Shown here: in pieces, positions 23,748 through 35,248 of the stretch | Layout: every line of letters starts with the position of its first letter | Numbering within the stretch: the first letter of the stretch is position 1 | From: Stachybotrys elegans | Taxonomy: Eukaryota > Ascomycota > Sordariomycetes > Hypocreales > Stachybotryaceae | Assembly (NCBI GenBank): GCA_020746835.1 | Contig: JAGPNK010000008.1 | Span: 1,922,001-1,986,000 of the forward strand | Reading direction: 5' to 3' | Length of the DNA stretch: 64,000 bases | The notes under the pieces: generated by a model | Databases searched by the model: none | What the model was told of the DNA's origin: nothing | Seen by the model: only the letters and a program-made list of their open reading frames with translations | Program-made: the position numbers and the translations under genes

Positions 23748-26700
23748 TTACAGCTCGGGAGCCTGTGTAATTAGCATATGCAACTCCTCCAAAGTCTCCG
23801 TCACTGCATCGCCACTCAGGGATGTAGGCACTGTATCCAGCGTTGTGTAAGCGCTGGTCACCGGCGGCTCGATATCATGTAGATTTATACGCGGCAGGTA
23901 ATCCACCCCGAGCTCCTCCATCTCATCCTTGCATTCGCTGTCCTTGCACTGGAGGAACCCGTAGTTCTCAAACAGCTCTTCTTCGGTTGCTTGGCGCGTT
24001 GAGTTACCCTCATCGACTACAATGTCCTCTGGGTCCACGGCCAGGTTATACCCAGGCCGGCTCTTCTTGCCACTGGTAAACTCGGGCCCAGGCCTGTGCT
24101 GGTAAAGCTGTGTATATTTCTTGTTGGTCGGGTGGGCGTTGTACCAAGGGTCGTTGGTCATGAGGGCAAACCCCGGGTCCGGCACCAGCATCTCTGGCCA
24201 GCACGGGTTGTCCGGGATGCCATAATCACGCAGCGCCGGCATGTTGATGAAGCTCATTGACACGACCGTCCTGGTCCGCGTTCGCGTCTCCACAAAGTGA
24301 GACGTCCGTCGCTTGCAACCTCTCTCAACACGGCCTCGACGAGGTTTCCTGTCCGCCGGTCCAACCTTGAAGCGGGCAGGGCATACGTTGCGGAAGAGGC
24401 TGCCCGCGCCCCTGTTCTGTGCCTGGGGCAGAAGCCGGATCCAGACGCGCTGGTTGCGCGCTTGCCATATCGCAGCAGGTGGGAATTCGTCGCGCTCGCA
24501 GCCCACGTTCTTGGCCCGCATCCAGCCATTAATCCATCCCTTATCGTGATCCCATACATATTGATGCACGACCTCGCGGATGTCGCCGTTGTTTTTGGTC
24601 GTGCAGGTCATGAGGGCGTTTTCTGGGTGCTTGTCGATCACGGAGCTGTAATGGAGACATGGTTGCGGCCATTTTTCGCCATCACACACTTTTGTCACTG
24701 TCGTATGGTGTTCCTTGAACCTCGTCTCCGTCTTGGAGAGGGGCCTCAGACGTGCACGCTTTTCCAGTGCCTCGTCCGCTAGTTTGCAGTGACCATCCTT
24801 CTCCGAGGGCCTGGTGGGCTCGGCTTTGGAACCACGGTCGTTCTTGGTGGTCAAGGGCTTGTCGAGCTTGACATCGTAGTCTTTGCCGCGGAATTTAAAG
24901 ACAGACTTGCCGCCTTTCGCAATGCCCTTGGCACACACGTTGGCCAGAGCTGGCACGGCTGCCTGGACCGCAAGTCGAATAATCCAACCTAGAAACTGTC
25001 AGGCAAAATTTCCACATGCAGGCGTAGAAACTCACCGACAAAGGGAATAAAGGTCAGAGGAGTCAACGCGGCAGTGATGGCGATCCTGCAAAACGCCTTT
25101 GCCGCGAGCTCTAGGGCCAATGCCTCTGCCACAGCTACCGCCTTGTCTGCCGCCTCGTCCTTGAACTTTCTCTGGACCTGCTCTTTCGTCACCGGCGGCG
25201 AGAAACCCGCACAGCAATAGCTTTGGGTCCCTCCGGTACAACTCTGATCCTCCTTGTCCGAATGGTGATTGGTGTTCTGAGTCACCTCTGTTTCCAGGTC
25301 TGCACACCCGCCAGTGCAAGGCAGCCCGAGGCCTCGGTAGCCGCGCCACCGACACTTGCCCATAATTGTCCCCTTGGTGCAGCAAAGCCGACGATAATCG
25401 CCCTTGGGGCAACGTTCCATTGTGGACAGCTGACCAGGCTGTCCATTCATCTGCGAGGCTTCGTGGTCGCCTTTTCGACACTTGTCGCCGCATTTAGTCG
25501 TGTAGCAGACGCCGTTGACTACTTCGTCTCTCGCGGCGCTTTCAGCCTCTGCAATCTCTTCTTTCGTCCACTCTTTGGGGTAGAGCAAACTTGTTGACTT
25601 TTGGTCGACCTGATCAATGGCCCAAACCATCAACCCACCTGCGAAAGAGCTGAGCAACTAGTGGTTACGTCGGCACGGAAGACTAACCTAAGCAACGGGA
25701 ATTTGCGAATTCCTTCTTCCGCTGCAGTGTCTCGTCGTCGTCGTAGGATACCCACTGATCTTGGTCCCAATGGATCCCTTCTATGATCTTAGTACAGTAT
25801 CTCGTTTGTATGCTGAGACTTACATTTGACGCCGGCCTTGTTGTCAGAAAAAGGCTTAAGCTTTTTATCTTTAATAATCTCTAGAATCTCCTGCAAGGTT
25901 AGAATCCCAGAGGCTTTGGAGCAGCGTCCTTCTTTGGCACCGGCAGAGAACTCGCAGATGCCATTGGGCTTGTTGCACTTTGGGTCCTTGAGTGTGAACG
26001 AACGACCGTAATCTGGCAAGCTGTTAGTATCGAACAGACAGGATCTCGGTAGTCTTACAGCCTTGACCCAGAACCACCTTTTCGGGTTTCAACCCAGCCC
26101 GCCACAGCAAATCCAGGCCCATGTCAATCTCGGTGATGTTGGTATGTGCAGCAACCTTGGGTCCTATCCACTTGGACGCTGCATCCCAAACCCCGTGAAG
26201 GTCGTAACTCATCAGGTTGAACCAATCAACGTGGGGCTGGTGTTTGGCCAGGTCGAAATGCTGCAGGTACCAATACGAAGCTGGCAGGGTGATGGAGTAT
26301 CCGTACTTTGAGCCAAAGGCAGCCTTGATTTCTTTGGACAGCAAGACAAAGTTGGCAGAATCCTCGGCACGGCCACCGCGGTCGGCTGGCCAATGTTAAA
26401 TAGGCTCATGATGATGACGTCGGACTAACCTGCTGTGGGATACTCCCAGTCCAAGTCCATGCCATCAAATCCATACGTCTTCATAAACTTGAGCAACCCA
26501 TCGATGAAGCGCTTCCGGTTCTCAGCCGTCATAGCCATATCACTAAAGGCTTTTTGATAGGGTCCAGCTTCACCACCATCAGCAGTGTACCACATTGAGG
26601 GAGGCAACTTACGATCATTAAAAGACCAACCGCCAACGCTTACCCACGTCTCCAGCCCAGACTTTTTCTGCTTAAGTTTTGTGAACCGATTCAGCAGGGA

Positions 26701-27399
26701 CCCAGCATTCTTATCCATGGGGATAATCTGAAATGTAACTGGGTCGAAGAAGACGAAAGCAAAGTTGAGATGGGTTAGGCCATCCAAGTTCAGGTCTTCG
26801 GGGGAAACCTTGTGGCATGATCTAGTATTCGCCCACGACTCGTAATAGCCGATCGAGCGGCGGCTTACGCTTCCGCCGTCCTTGCTGCAGGATGGCCGCT
26901 TCACGTCACCACAGCCGCCGAAGCCTTTTTGACAACCAGCATCACAAAAGTCAGAGGTTGAACCACAAAATCTGAAAATACGTTAGCATCGCATTGCATG
27001 ACAGAATTATTTTCCTACCCAAACTTGGAGCAGCAGACGCCTAGTGGGCAGTTTTGCTTGCCAGGTTGCCCATACTTGCCACACTCTGCCTTGGCATCAC
27101 AGTTGGACGTGCAGTTCCCGGCACCACACTCGGTGGGGGAATAGCCACACAATTTTGTAATCTACCTTGTAAGTCTTGTACTGTTATCCAAAGGAGTAAC
27201 ACACCTTGCTGCAACATGCGCCGTTTACGCATGGAGTGTGCTCATTGCATGTCCCAACAGGGAGCTCAAGGGTCTCAGCAGACAGGTAGTTTTGAAGAAT
27301 CCCATATGGCGAGTTGCGGTTGAAATATGATTCGGCAGCAATTTTCTGAACAAAAAATGCGAGAAAAAGGCTGCCCAGAGCGCTGGGTCGGTACTTCAT
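23748..27399 (-). CDS. GH18 subgroup-C chitinase with hevein domain and C-terminal NucA/NucB-like nuclease domain
   Basis: Eight exons on the minus strand: 27205-27399, 27019-27161, 26430-26971, 26059-26385, 25824-26012, 25688-25777, 25036-25638, 23748-24988 (1109 aa). Order: signal peptide (1-22); Cys-rich hevein (CBM18) region (about 50-134, ECGAGNC...CCSKFGFCG); GH18 barrel (about 152-508) with WVSVGGWSF, the complete DGMDLDWE (282-289, Glu289 proton donor), MSYDLHGVWD and VMVWAID-like end; two Cys-rich modules ending in CC (about 530-650); a LEKR Kex2-like site (771-774); then a domain (about 797-899) with RDEFPPA (862-868) and NRGAGS (888-893), matching the RDE(W/F)P and NRGAGS signatures of extracellular NucA/NucB DNases. 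A Cys/Asp-rich tail follows. Secreted; hydrolyses chitin. The DNase activity and killer-toxin-like delivery are inferred. Head-to-head with a LysM gene. Confidence 0.88.
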
Positions 27400-28243: not shown

Positions 28244-30221
28244 ATGGTATTATACCCGGCTTTAAGATCGATACTGGTCGTGTCCTGCGCCTTGGTGGTA
28301 TCGGGGTTTACTCTTTACCCTTTGATCCCACCCCACGCGATGGGAGAGATTCTAGGCATCAGTCAACCGTGTCTTGCCGCATTGTACGTGCAGCCGCTGT
28401 GCAGCCGCCGTTGCCAGCATCAGCTAACCGCGTCCAGGAACACCACATTACCTTGCGACCCCAATATATTCCAATGGACCATCAAGATAGATGACGTGTA
28501 TTGGACTGAAAAAGATGTGGGCGCCTTGTGCGTCCCCAACTGTATTAGCAAGGCCCGCGACTGGAGCAAAGCCGTCCAAGTCGCATGCCGCGATGACTGG
28601 ATGACGGCTGGTGAACGCGCTGTTCCGGCAGAGTCGCTCAGTCTACGCTTTTTGGAAGGACTTGAAATGGCGTGTATGCGCTCAAAGTCGAACGAATGGT
28701 GCCTCCTCAAGTCCTACGAGTGGGTGGGATCGGACGTGGTACAGGTCGACTGTGCGGCGAAACCCAACGACCCGTGGTGCATTGACAAAGGCAATGTGTC
28801 GGCTGAGAACAGCAGAATGTCAAGTCTATATGACGATGACATATTATGCTCCGAGTGCTTCCTCAAAACATTGCATGCGCGCTTGAGCTCCGAGTTCCTG
28901 CAGGACACTGACTACGCCGACTATCTTGTCGACGAGTTTCAAGATATTCAGTCTGTCTGTAAAACAACAGTAGGAGATCTGACAACGCGCGCAATTCCGG
29001 GATACCCCGCCGCAACGGAAACCAGCAACCCCGGACAACCGGAACCTGATCCCGGGCACGACGAGCCCCCAGAGGACGAAGATCCAGACGATGGAGATGA
29101 TGCTGAGGATCCCCAGCCCGATATTCCCACCAACTGCACTGGTCGCGCCATCGACGTCAGATATGCCAGTGGAGAGGGCGTCGCCGCCTGTAACGAGCTC
29201 TCACTCAAGTATGGTGTGGCAACGGGCGAGTTGATGTTGGCCACAAACAGCGAAGAGTGCTACTCGTTCAACTTTGTCTGTGTCCCGGAGCGGTGTCAGT
29301 TGCTACGTGTTCAGCAAGGAAATACATGGCATGTAAATCTCAAGAGACTGGGACCTGGCTAACATGTCGAAGTGAATCTATTGCGAGCGCTCTTTCGAAT
29401 GCGACGGACCCTGTGAATATGGCACAAATCGCTACTTGGAACCCCAATATCCAAGGTGCATGCGATTTTCTTGTCCAGGATCAGTATATTTGCATCAAGT
29501 CAGTATATACACGTTCAACCTGTCTGCCGCTAACAAATCCAGTGCACCGGGAGGATCGTGGATCCGTCCCCCAGAGTCTGAGCTGCCTAGTGACGGGAAC
29601 GGACCTGTACGGGGTGGGCCAGGCAGCACGCCCACGCTCCCCATCATCGAGGACCCTAGGCTAGTCCCATCAGACCGCGTCCAAAAGGGCATACCGTCCA
29701 ACTGCCGTCGCTTTGTGAAAGCAGACTCGGCCGGCGCAACGTGCTGGAAGGTCGCCAATGACGCCAAGATCAGCCAAGCCGAACTCTTCAAGCTGAATCC
29801 TGTGCTGGGCGCCCAAGGCGAGCACTGCAATACTCAGCTCTGGCTGGGCTATTACTACTGCGTCGCTGCAGGCACTGCGCCTGGGTGGACTACCCTAACA
29901 ACTATACCCACTGCCACGACCACAATCCCGTTGAAGCCTTCGCCGACACAGGACGGGTTTAATGCAAGCTGCAACAAGTGGGTCAAAGCGGCGGCCGGCG
30001 ATAGCTGTTGGAAGCTCGCTGAAGACGCCAAGATTGAGATTACGCAGCTATACAAGTGGAATACAGCACTGGGGGCCAAGGGGGAGAACTGTGCTACGAT
30101 TGTTTGGCCTGGCTACTACTACTGCATCGGTGTATCGAAGGCTCAAATGGAGGCCCATCCGACACAGACCGCGGAACCTTATGCAAAGCAAGAGGTGGGC
30201 TGGGCCCCTTTGGACTTGTAG
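28244..30221 (+). CDS. Secreted multi-LysM chitin-binding protein
   Basis: Exons 28244-29328, 29373-29498, 29543-30221 (629 aa). A hydrophobic signal peptide covers about 1-24. The N-terminal half has many Cys and an acidic Pro-rich linker (PEDEDPDDGDDAEDPQ). Then come a degenerate LysM-like unit (about 296-347) and three LysM domains: about 350-403 (QQGNTCESIA), 458-510 (CWKVANDAKISQAELFKLNP) and 547-598 (CWKLAEDAKIEITQLYKWN). LysM modules bind chitin oligomers in the wall or apoplast. The first intron (29329-29372) has a GC donor (TG/GCATGT) and AAG acceptor. No GT donor gives the required phase, and splicing there completes the conserved GNTCESI motif. The gene is head-to-head with the upstream chitinase, as seen for LysM genes beside subgroup-C chitinases in Trichoderma. 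Likely roles are self-protection or chitin masking (inferred). Confidence 0.85.
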
Positions 30222-31442: not shown

Positions 31443-34400
31443 TCATGACTTCTGCCACTTGAGATCACTGACCTTGTTGGCATAATACGAACACGTATGG
31501 AGCAGCCGCTGGAGGTGGGCACTCTGAGCAGCGACGCTCGCCGGCACGTTGAAGGTGACGTAGTTGTTCATGTCAAGCACAAACATGCGCGCCTTCTGGA
31601 CGACGGCCTCCTTGTACACAGGCATGAATTCATCGAATATGGCCTTGATGCCCCTGAGCTCAGCTGGGAAGCAGTTAGTGAAACGTGGTTCAAAGTGGAT
31701 GGGAGGGGCACCAACGCATATGATCCTCCATGTTTTGAATCTCTTTTGTGATGGCCCTCATCGTCTCGTCCTCGACAATCTCCGTGATTCCGTCGTTCAT
31801 GTAATTGAAGGCTGCAAAGACGTTTTTTATGACAATTTCGATCTTCTGGGCGCTCTTGACGGTTCCCTTGAGCGCCTCTGTGACGTACTTCTTCCTCTTA
31901 TCCGCAGCCATGGGATTGTTCAGACTGAAGAGCTGGCCCTTGACCCAGTTGACGTCACCCTTGATCAGGAACATGTTCCTCATGTTGCCCCAGTCGCCCA
32001 GGGCCGTCATGAGGCGATCGGCCGGCGTGTTGAGGGGCGCCACCCACGACGGGTCCATGCCAGAGACGACCTCGTAGAAGGAGTTGAGGGCGATGCCGGC
32101 AGCGTAGGCCTTGTTCCAACCGGCCAGCAAATTAGCCTCGGCCAGCATCGCGGCCTGCATCGGGAGCTTGCCCAAGACGCCGGGCAACAGGCCCGTGACG
32201 CACGTCTCGAGGAACACCTTTGGCCACTGGACCTCGAAGAAGTGCTCCGTCTGGAAGAACTTCCTGGGGAGCTCCGACACCTTGAGGAAGGTCAGGGCGG
32301 CGTTGGTGCAGACGTTGTCCGGGGAATCGTAGCCTCCCTTGAGCAGCATCGTGGCCAGGCCGGTACCCGAGCGGAAGAGGTAGTCTCGCTTGTCTCCTGT
32401 CGGGTACGGACGAGACCACCAGGTGAGAACCGCGCCAGAGGACAGCAAGAGGTCAATCTTGCGCCGAGAACCAGGCCTGTTCCTGGTGCGGGCCTCCAAC
32501 TCGTTGTAATGGCTCCTCCGGGCCAGGCTGCTAGACTCATCGCCCAGGCCGTCATAGCAGTCAGTCTCGTCATCCGCACATATGTCAACGTCGCAAATAT
32601 CCTCCTCCAGAGCGTCGGAATTGGGCGTGCAGCACAGCGACTTGTGTCGCCACCAGTTGCACGCCCTCGAGCCGTCCGTGTCTCCGAAGTTGTTTGTATA
32701 CAGCGTCACCTCGGTTTGAGCGCACGAGTTCTGTGCGCAGTCCCCCTTGCCGACCCAATGGCACTGCTGCAGCGGCATGGGACGGTCCTTTTTGCAGCAG
32801 TACCGGTATCCGTTGCAGAAGATGGTCGCGTAGCCCCCGCGGTCCCACGCGTATGCCACCTCCTGCTCGTCACTCTTACACTGGTTGTCGGTGCAGCTCT
32901 CGGTCCAGCGGCAGTGTTCGGTGAGACTGTCGAACTGGGTCGCCTTACAGCAGAAGGCCTTGCCGCCGCGGCTACACCGGCTCTCCCCAGACGACTCACC
33001 CGGGCTGCCGCCCCAGCTCGAGCCCGAGACCTTGACCTCGCCGTCGTGGCACCGCCCGTTGCAGTCGCCGCCGGAGCCGCGCCATGTGCACTCCCCCATG
33101 CTGTGGCCATTGGGGCAGCAGATGGCCTTGCCGCAGCGCGTCTGGTCCTTTTTCGAGCACTTTTCGCCATCCCAGTCGGAACCAACCTTGGTGAAGCCCT
33201 CCTTGCAGAATCCCGTACGGCTATCTGTCTTGTAGCACTTTCCGCCGAGGCTGGTATCGACGTCGGCGACACTGACTGGGCCCTGCTCAACTAGCTTCTT
33301 GGCCGCCGACTTGAGATTCGTGTTTCCTGTAAGTGCCTTGTGCGCCGAGAACTCGTAGTCATCTGTGAGGCATCAGCGAATGAGACTTTGGGTTTTGGGG
33401 AATGGCCAACGGCGTCTTACCTAGGTCTGATGCCCAGATGAGCGAGCCTGAAAAGCCGATGTCGTCTGCCCACTTGATCTTCTGCTCAAACGTTTCATGG
33501 TCATCGTACGAGATCCACTGGTCATTGTCCCAAGTCATGTACTTGACAGCAGCCTCCTTGTCGTGGACTGGTGTGATGCCGCGTTTCTTATTCTTGCCGA
33601 TGATGTCCTGGATCTCGTAGTGGGCGAGATCTGCATATTCATCAGTCAACCGCTCTCCTATTCGAGATGCACAACTTACATCCACTGGTACCTGTGCACA
33701 CTCCAGGCTTTGCGCCACTGGCAAATCGGCAGCCAGGCGTCGTACATCCTGGGTCAGCCAGAGTGAAAGCTCGTCCGTAGAATCCGAAACCAAGTGCGAG
33801 TTTGGAGGGAGGGATATCGACACGCCAGAACAGCTCAGCGGCCAATTTGATCTCGGTCAGATTGGTGTGACCTTGAACGATAGAGCCAATGGGATTAGAA
33901 CTGTCCCAAACACCGTGAAGATCGTAAGACATCTGAGAGTTCCATGTCAGCAGCGAATCATGCATTTGCAACGATAACTTACAATGTTGATCCAGTCCAC
34001 GTGTTTGATCATACCAGGCAGATCGAACCAGCGAAGATACCAGAACGACGACGGCGCGGTAAACGTGAGACCGATCTTGCGGCCCGAATTGTCAAACGCC
34101 TTTCGAAGTGTCTCGACGAGTGCCACATAGTTCTCGGTGTCGTCCTTTTTACCACCGCGGTCCGGAGCGCCAGGATACTCCCAGTCGAGATCCACGCCGT
34201 CATATCCGTACGTGTCCAAGAACTTAAGCAGATTGCTGGCAAACTTGTCACGGTTGGATGAGCTTCGCGCAATATCACCAAAGACGGGCTGCGTGGCCGT
34301 GCCATTATCCGAAAAAGTCCAGCCACCGAGACTGACGTAGAGCTGCAAGTTCGGGTTAGAGGTCTTCAAATCTGCCACATCTTGGAACGTCTTGGCAGGC

Positions 34401-35248
34401 GTGGCGGCATCCATGGTCGTGATTTGGAATGACTGGGGGTCAATGTAGGCAAACGCATAGTTGAGGTGGGTGAGGCCGTCAACTGATGGATGTCAGTCAC
34501 AAACATCACCAGGGGAGAGATGACACGCACTAGGAAGGTCAGAAGCTTTGGTCTGGTGACACTTGGATCTATCGTTCCACGCTTCATAGTAGCCGATGAC
34601 TGTAGCAATGATGAGCTTTGTCTACCAACAAGTTGGGGTTATACCTTTGTCCAGCGTCTTTCCTCCACCACCCGGTGGCTTGGGATGCTCAACGCAGTTG
34701 GACTGGCATTTTCCAGTGCAGAAATCTAGTTCCTTTCAGTAACTTTGATCCCGTCTAGAAAACACGTCAAATACCTTTGGTTGTGCCACAAAAGCCGTGC
34801 TCGGAGCAACATGTGTTGAGAGGGCACTTTTTGTCCTTTGGCACGGCATACTGGCCGCACTCGGCGTGCGCATCGCAGTTGCTTGTGCATCCATCGCCAC
34901 AATATGTTGGTCCATAGCCACACCAGCCGTCCTCTGTAAAGTTTGTCAGTGTGCTTCGACAAGAGGAGATGGTCACATACTCCCACAACATGCACCGTTG
35001 CCACAAGCTCCTGTAGTTATGCAGTCAGTAGGAATTAAGTAGGCGGAAGGAATGTAAGGTCACTGACTACCAGGACCACAAGTAAAGTCCTCTCTTTTGT
35101 GCAACGCTACTGCTGCATCTTGATACGCAAGAGCACGGCGTTCAAGGGAGGAGAATCGCCTGTGGACGGTTGGCTCTGAGCTGCTCAATTCAGCCGCAGT
35201 GCTGACGACCAAGGCCAGCACAAATGGCAGATAACAATAAGGCCGCAT
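31443..35248 (-). CDS. GH18 subgroup-C chitinase with hevein domain and unassigned helical C-terminal domain
   Basis: Ten exons on the minus strand: 35071-35248, 34981-35010, 34775-34933, 34645-34725, 34531-34599, 33983-34482, 33680-33932, 33421-33630, 31716-33362, 31443-31663 (1115 aa). Order: signal peptide (1-20); hevein/CBM18 region (about 58-140, CGYGPTYCGDGC...CCSEHGFCG); GH18 (about 150-495) with YVSLGGWTF, intact DGVDLDWE (267-274, Glu274), MSYDLHGVWD and SLIWASDL; four Cys-rich modules (about 536-738), each ending in CC; a dibasic ARR site (774-776); and a C-terminal domain of about 340 residues, largely helical by composition, with no recognised family. It shares the whole N-terminal plan with the chitinase at 23.7-27.4 kb but not the last domain. 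Secreted. The last intron uses GTTGGT and could be off by a few residues. A 576-aa opposite-strand frame is a shadow. Confidence 0.88.

Follow-up and report, generated by a model that had tools for sequence, protein, structure and literature searches.

The question raised by a 64,000-nucleotide stretch of Stachybotrys elegans DNA (hereafter the window) is whether a chitinase gene on its minus strand ends in a nuclease and, if so, what a single chain combining the two might do. The window belongs to contig C60 (1.92–1.99 Mb) of a 43.4-Mb assembly in 61 contigs, which makes the gene chromosomal. In our exon model, the gene comprises eight exons with GT–AG introns and is translated as a single open frame of 1109 residues. 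The last exon, which an earlier reading of the same DNA (the original prediction) had proposed to encode a NucA/NucB-type nuclease, has the same coordinates in this model.

27399-27205, 27161-27019, 26971-26430, 26385-26059, minus strand: exons 1–4 (exon model)
26012-25824, 25777-25688, 25638-25036, 24988-23748, minus strand: exons 5–8 (exon model)
23748..24988, minus strand: exon 8, coding for residues 697–1109 and the stop codon (exon model)

Exons 7 and 8 are probably joined, as had been assumed. At the sequence level, the junction is spanned by the public model P0001 ("hypothetical protein B0I35DRAFT_504515 [Stachybotrys elegans]", with 100% identity over the searched region), and homologues such as P0003 (1118 residues, GH18 and CBM18) are unbroken across its position. 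P0001 has 611 residues, starts inside exon 7, ends at the same C-terminus as our model and omits the chitinase exons; because the window has these exons directly upstream, the public model hides the fusion. In P0003, P0009, P0012 and others, GH18 and the nuclease lie within one predicted chain. The motifs on which the original prediction was built were located at residues 771–774 (LEKR), 834–837 (REVV), 860–868 (CERDEFPPA), 888–893 (NRGAGS) and 282–289 (DGMDLDWE), and both the GH18 domain with its intact DGMDLDWE motif and the hevein domain were recovered from the chain by Pfam (E 7.3e-63 and E 1.3e-9, respectively).

The tail domain and its predicted active site

The tail domain is very probably a NucA/NucB-like nuclease, for which metal-dependent activity is predicted. 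The Pfam family PF14040, whose hidden Markov model (HMM) had been proposed as the check, gave no match to this protein at E up to 10 and was rejected as a detector of the domain; its search of the genome retrieved two other genes and not this one, namely L001 (C60:1699789, E 6.6e-18) and L002 (C4:1318824, E 3.1e-10), neither with a listed GH18 match within 100 kb. As PF14040 is blind to the domain, identification rests on profile comparison, residue pairing and predicted fold and, since the family cut-off was not reached, we use the name NucB-like and leave the domain outside PF14040.

Profile–profile comparison of 33 fungal domains with 80 bacterial NucB-like sequences gave a score of 32.7, which none of 200 column-shuffled alignments reached (mean 11.9, maximum 20.7); the reversed alignment scored 13.5. 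The active-site residues of NucB were taken from PMC5758888, and H53, R77, R92, D93, E94 and N117 could all be paired one-to-one with residues of this protein. The predicted fold is of the NucB type with a beta-beta-alpha motif, at approximately 20% identity to NucB, as judged by VIA-align of Foldseek candidates. The nuclease assignment thus stood by profile score, residue pairing and predicted fold and failed by PF14040. Further searches were uninformative: alignment A1 against PDB sequences returned 214 matches, the best 60 of which were chitinases; L001 retrieved antibody-type chains only; NCBIfam added nothing for the tail; and the viral contigs searched contained no confirmed relative.

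24246..24713, minus strand: NucB-like nuclease domain, residues 789–944 (profile score, residue pairing, predicted fold)
24651..24653, minus strand: H809, equivalent of NucB H53 (residue pairing)
24576..24578, minus strand: R834, equivalent of NucB R77 (residue pairing)
24474..24494, minus strand: RDEFPPA, residues 862–868, equivalent of NucB R92-D93-E94 (residue pairing)
24399..24416, minus strand: NRGAGS, residues 888–893, with N888 equivalent to the metal ligand N117 (residue pairing)

A search with residues 690–1040 (E ≤ 0.01) returned 38 proteins, 32 of which carry a GH18 Pfam domain; the genera named include Colletotrichum, Rhynchosporium, Xylaria, Alternaria, Elsinoe, Cadophora and Pseudogymnoascus, and the chitinase–nuclease fusion recurs across many ascomycetes. 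The tail is kept and the GH18 Pfam domain absent in P0001, P0002, P0004–P0006 and P0028. Conservation was assessed in an alignment of 33 rows, comprising the window protein and 32 others, from which P0001 was dropped as a duplicate (P0004, P0007, P0008, P0011 and P0037 were left out of alignment A3), and in a wider set of 141 proteins plus the window protein, with the domain in 105, where per-site counts refer to rows covering the site, P0001 excluded. D863, E864 and N888 are invariant in the 33 rows and were kept in 99/99, 98/99 and 79/81 rows of the wider set, respectively. Given that these three are near-constant and H809, R834 and R862 vary, the putative metal/base core appears nearly fixed and the support residues looser. 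An insert bearing H844 is found in 33/33 rows and in 79/96 of the wider set.

With Bacillus NucB/NucA (ComI) and the Tox-ComI domain of polymorphic toxins, the domain shares the predicted beta-beta-alpha fold, DRDE-like and DNRG-like motifs and equivalents of H53, R77 and N117. It differs from Bacillus NucB in the H844 insert, a further conserved C-terminal part, the fusion to a chitinase and the lack of a PF14040 match. Tox-ComI has been listed in ascomycetes and basidiomycetes by a study which suggests that fungi may deploy bacterial toxin domains in conflicts (PMC3482391); the searched portion of that text does not mention "chitin" or "chitinase".

Carrier, putative release sites and alternative tails

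The modules follow one another in the order leader, CBM18, GH18, Cys-rich module, hydrophobic segment, LEKR linker, nuclease-like domain, conserved C-terminal part and acidic tail. A catalytic GH18 of the DxxDxDxE type stands together with a CBM18, as in killer toxin-like (group C) chitinases. The CBM18 coding stretch is split by intron 27018-26972, and the hydrophobic segment is the sole stretch of this protein with a Kyte–Doolittle 19-residue mean of at least 1.6.

27334..27399, minus strand: putative N-terminal secretion leader, residues 1–22, end approximate (by eye from the translation)
26926..27086, minus strand: CBM18, a hevein-like chitin-binding domain, residues 91–128 (Pfam PF00187, E 1.3e-9)
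25610..26859, minus strand: GH18 chitinase domain, residues 151–505, exons 3–7 (Pfam PF00704, E 7.3e-63)
26466-26443, minus strand: GH18 catalytic DGMDLDWE, residues 282–289 (motif search)
25190..25537, minus strand: Cys-rich module, residues 530–645, with 12 Cys (carrier part common to both tail classes)
24945..25093, minus strand: hydrophobic segment, residues 678–711, spanning the exon 7/8 junction with intron 25035-24989 (Kyte–Doolittle)
24756..24767, minus strand: LEKR, residues 771–774, dibasic site of Kex2 type ahead of the nuclease (motif search)
23751..24056, minus strand: acidic C-terminal tail, residues 1008–1109, net charge -20 (charge count)

Release of the nuclease at LEKR had been part of the original prediction. 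The site is conserved, with a KR dipeptide between the hydrophobic module and the nuclease in 60 of the 67 nuclease-tailed proteins where both were found, while cleavage there is predicted. KR clusters in two linkers that flank the nuclease, an upstream one (residues 752–782, 28/33 rows) and a downstream one (residues 985–1022, 27/33 rows), with both occupied in 23/33. The density per 100 residues reaches 2.99 and 2.31 in these linkers, compared with 0.08 in residues 793–905, 0.69 in 906–984 and 0 in 1023–1060. Beyond the downstream linker, the segment is negatively charged in 32/32 rows (median -11.5; P0021 was dropped as too short).

Relatives of the carrier do not all end in a nuclease. A search with residues 530–745 returned 101 proteins which, pooled with those of the tail search, gave 109; the nuclease is present in 76 (HMM E < 1e-3) and lacking in 33. 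Among the latter, 22 match a second-tail motif (HYxLxxG or a variant, followed by NNC), and the other 11 are shortened, miss part of the motif or have different ends. In P0088, one of these 11, the carrier and the DPGFALL C-terminal part persist and the nuclease stretch is gone, through either a deletion or a gap in the gene model. The second-tail proteins, which lie within P0109–P0139 and come from named sources including Letharia, Talaromyces, Phlyctema, Pleurostoma and Leptodophora, all have a KR no more than 80 residues from the module (22/22) and form 18 clusters at 90% tail identity.

Comparison of 60 nuclease-tailed proteins with these 22 in blocks of 20 residues gave between-class mean identities of 39–78% across the Cys-rich and hydrophobic modules, 24–27% in three linker blocks and 9–12% beyond, the drop beginning in the linker, ahead of KR. 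Aligned by hhalign with the fungal nuclease (11.4) and with bacterial NucB (10.1), the second tail scored no better than noise. A conserved carrier is therefore combined with non-homologous C-terminal domains, as in polymorphic toxins, and the family resembles a carrier whose tails can be exchanged. A single class change suffices in a tree of 70 carriers (45 nuclease-tailed and 25 of the second class, among them P0114, P0121 and P0130, in which the strict second-tail motif is incomplete), with a support of 77 by a quick method, and frequent tail swapping thus found no support. The second tail may adopt a PPPDE-like or permuted papain fold; similarity to the PPPDE peptidase family was at best faint, in one of five proteins scanned (P0112, E 0.17). 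A possible third kind of tail is listed for Podospora Pa_5_1150, in which Hce2, and not a nuclease, accompanies chitin binding and GH18 (PMC3689799).

Proposed function and competing explanations

We favour, with a probability of approximately 55%, a secreted one-chain killer toxin in which a chitin-targeted carrier bears a nuclease cargo against a chitin-walled competitor. By family function, CBM18 and GH18 would bind and then open the chitin wall, whereupon the hydrophobic module may help the chain or its tail to engage the exposed membrane. Kex2-type cleavage at KR would free a metal nuclease of the NucB beta-beta-alpha type, in which D863 and N888 would hold a divalent metal, E864 would act as general base and H809, R834 and R862 as support. 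The freed nuclease would cut the DNA, and possibly the RNA, of the competitor, and the acidic C-terminal tail may mask it inside the producer. Secretion, membrane passage, antifungal effect and self-protection by the acidic tail are expectations of this scheme. S. elegans has been called a mycoparasite (PMC4546130).

Several observations weigh against this proposal. Foldseek alone gave no significant structural match to the domain. H809 is kept in 30/33 rows and in 72/92 of the wider set, with N in the remaining 20; R834 is kept in 32/33 and 77/97 (20/97 differ) and R862 in 25/33 and 71/99 (28/99 differ). The hydrophobic stretch was detected in 65 of 94 proteins checked. KR also occurs outside the linkers, in residues 906–984 of 14/33 rows, and past GH18 this protein has it only at 773–774 and 922–923, the downstream linker being devoid of it; as 922–923 lies inside the NucB-like span, a cut there would damage the domain unless the site is buried. 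With a net positive nuclease part in just 14/32 rows (median 0; +10 in this protein), masking loses weight as a general idea. Plant pathogens and lichens are represented among the named genera, which does not point to fungi in particular as the target. No gene for immunity came to light, the neighbour at 23487-22405 having no Pfam match (E ≤ 0.01) and no wider search having been made. Deletion of chiC2, which may or may not have this tail, left activity against F. graminearum unaffected, and curing experiments in Debaryomyces hansenii, home of a comparable chain described below, found no link to killing (PMC8472843). For every family member, nuclease activity, cleavage and uptake are predictions.

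Among the competing explanations, the strongest is that a chitin-held or released nuclease digests extracellular DNA, be it that of dead prey or of DNA traps set by plants or insects, to feed or to evade defences and never enters a living cell. Relatives occupy many niches, translocation into cells is itself a conjecture, and Bacillus NucB is likewise secreted and, as a DNase, breaks down the DNA of biofilms (PMC5758888). Such scavenging leaves unexplained the hydrophobic module, the recurrent KR between chitinase and nuclease and the unrelated tail that follows the same linker in relatives, and we regard it as rather unlikely. A role directed at own or sister hyphae, through wall remodelling with programmed death or heterokaryon incompatibility, would accord with the 3.07-fold increase of Pa_5_1150 in Podospora incompatibility (PMC3689799), but the extra domain of that protein differs and its expression figure does not come from the nuclease-tailed class, which leaves this role improbable. 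It is quite improbable that the NucB fold was retained to bind DNA or another polymer without cutting: the drift of the domain beyond PF14040 and the variation of H809, R834 and R862 in part of the wider family would suit a binder, whereas the near-constancy of D863, E864 and N888 in the wider set and the presence of all six paired residues here would not. That exon 8 is a separate gene, as the omission of the chitinase exons from P0001 might suggest, is scarcely credible, since P0001 itself joins exons 7 and 8 and P0003, P0009, P0012 and others are single chains.

Known systems, neighbouring genes and meaning

A chitinase–NucA/NucB killer chain is not a new idea, because ORF2p of pDH5A, a linear element of D. 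hansenii, has been described with a chitin-binding domain, a full GH18, a predicted signal peptide, a single predicted transmembrane region and a NucA/NucB fragment, two of its five Kex2 motifs preceding the DNase part; according to the same source, DNase activity has so far been identified in none of the linear-plasmid proteins (PMC8472843). The original prediction did not cite this precedent. Likened by this published description, the two proteins share chitin-binding, GH18, Kex2 motifs and a NucA/NucB part in one chain. They differ in that pDH5A is a yeast cytoplasmic linear element with a DNase fragment only, whereas the S. elegans protein is chromosomal, comes from a filamentous ascomycete, has a complete NucB fold by prediction and is one of a family that recurs. 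Among the titles and abstract openings covered, which leave absence unproven, no filamentous-fungal chitinase with a nuclease tail is mentioned, and we found no description of a complete, Pfam-invisible domain bearing an active site and recurring in filamentous ascomycetes, of its dibasic bracketing or of the tail exchange.

The zymocin of Kluyveromyces lactis, which undergoes Kex-type processing, has a chitinase subunit that assists the entry of its nuclease toxin into the target cell (PMC8715425, PMC8472843). Its tRNase is a subunit of its own, gamma, whose gene lies on a linear plasmid; the nuclease of S. elegans is NucB-like, in the same chain and chromosomal. The pairing of a nuclease-type toxin part with a chitinase is present here at the level of sequence and fold only, and a tRNA nuclease on a separate subunit and a linear plasmid are absent, so the protein may work like zymocin, though it is no member of the zymocin-type toxins. 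The zymocin-like delivery put forward in the original prediction fits the architecture, while delivery, target and toxicity are what we infer.

The protein also resembles the killer toxin-like (group C) fungal chitinases, one of which bears an Hce2 domain, in its GH18, its chitin-binding module and a neighbouring LysM gene (PMC8715425, PMC4392113, PMC3689799). LysM modules are said to define subgroup C (PMC4392113), and none was found in the S. elegans chain by Pfam at E up to 10; we therefore do not file it as canonical group C. The LysM domain (PF01476, E 5e-7 within 29376-30218) belongs to a divergent neighbour at 28244-30221 on the plus strand, and chitinase/LysM gene pairs are known from Trichoderma tac6/tal6 (PMC4392113). 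A second chitinase lies at 31690-34492 on the minus strand (GH18 E 1e-38 at 34492-33947; exons unjoined), followed by a 560-residue frame (33372-31690) with a Cys-rich part, another tail and no Pfam match; inspection by eye revealed no NucB-like motif in it. A paralogue search of this genome gave one weak partial tail match on contig C11 (L004, approximately 1090–1910; 29% over 114 residues, E 0.19), where MNGGAETL and NPCWP motifs seen by eye point to a relic or a diverged copy. A further chitinase, L009/L116 (C10:143458-144873), is related to this gene in its Cys-rich module (36%, E 2e-4) and ends in a long tail of another type, in which several KR dipeptides occur.

More broadly, and tentatively, filamentous ascomycetes may carry chromosomal polymorphic-toxin-like proteins with a shared CBM18–GH18–Cys-rich–hydrophobic carrier, exchangeable tails (the NucB-like nuclease, the second tail as a possible permuted-papain peptidase, and Hce2), release of each tail at the same Kex2 site into fungal rivals and an acidic propeptide as guard, although we hold this general scheme to be doubtful as a whole. 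Annotation overlooks the nuclease domain because Pfam cannot see it, and some public models (P0001, P0002, P0004–P0006) show the tail without any GH18 domain. According to a published hypothesis, killer toxin-like chitinases breach walls so that antifungal molecules can pass (PMC8715425). With a nuclease and its active site built in, some of them would carry a well-defined warhead, and the hypothesis could be tested directly by point mutation; tails that can be exchanged behind a single protease site would bring to moulds the logic known from bacterial polymorphic toxins.
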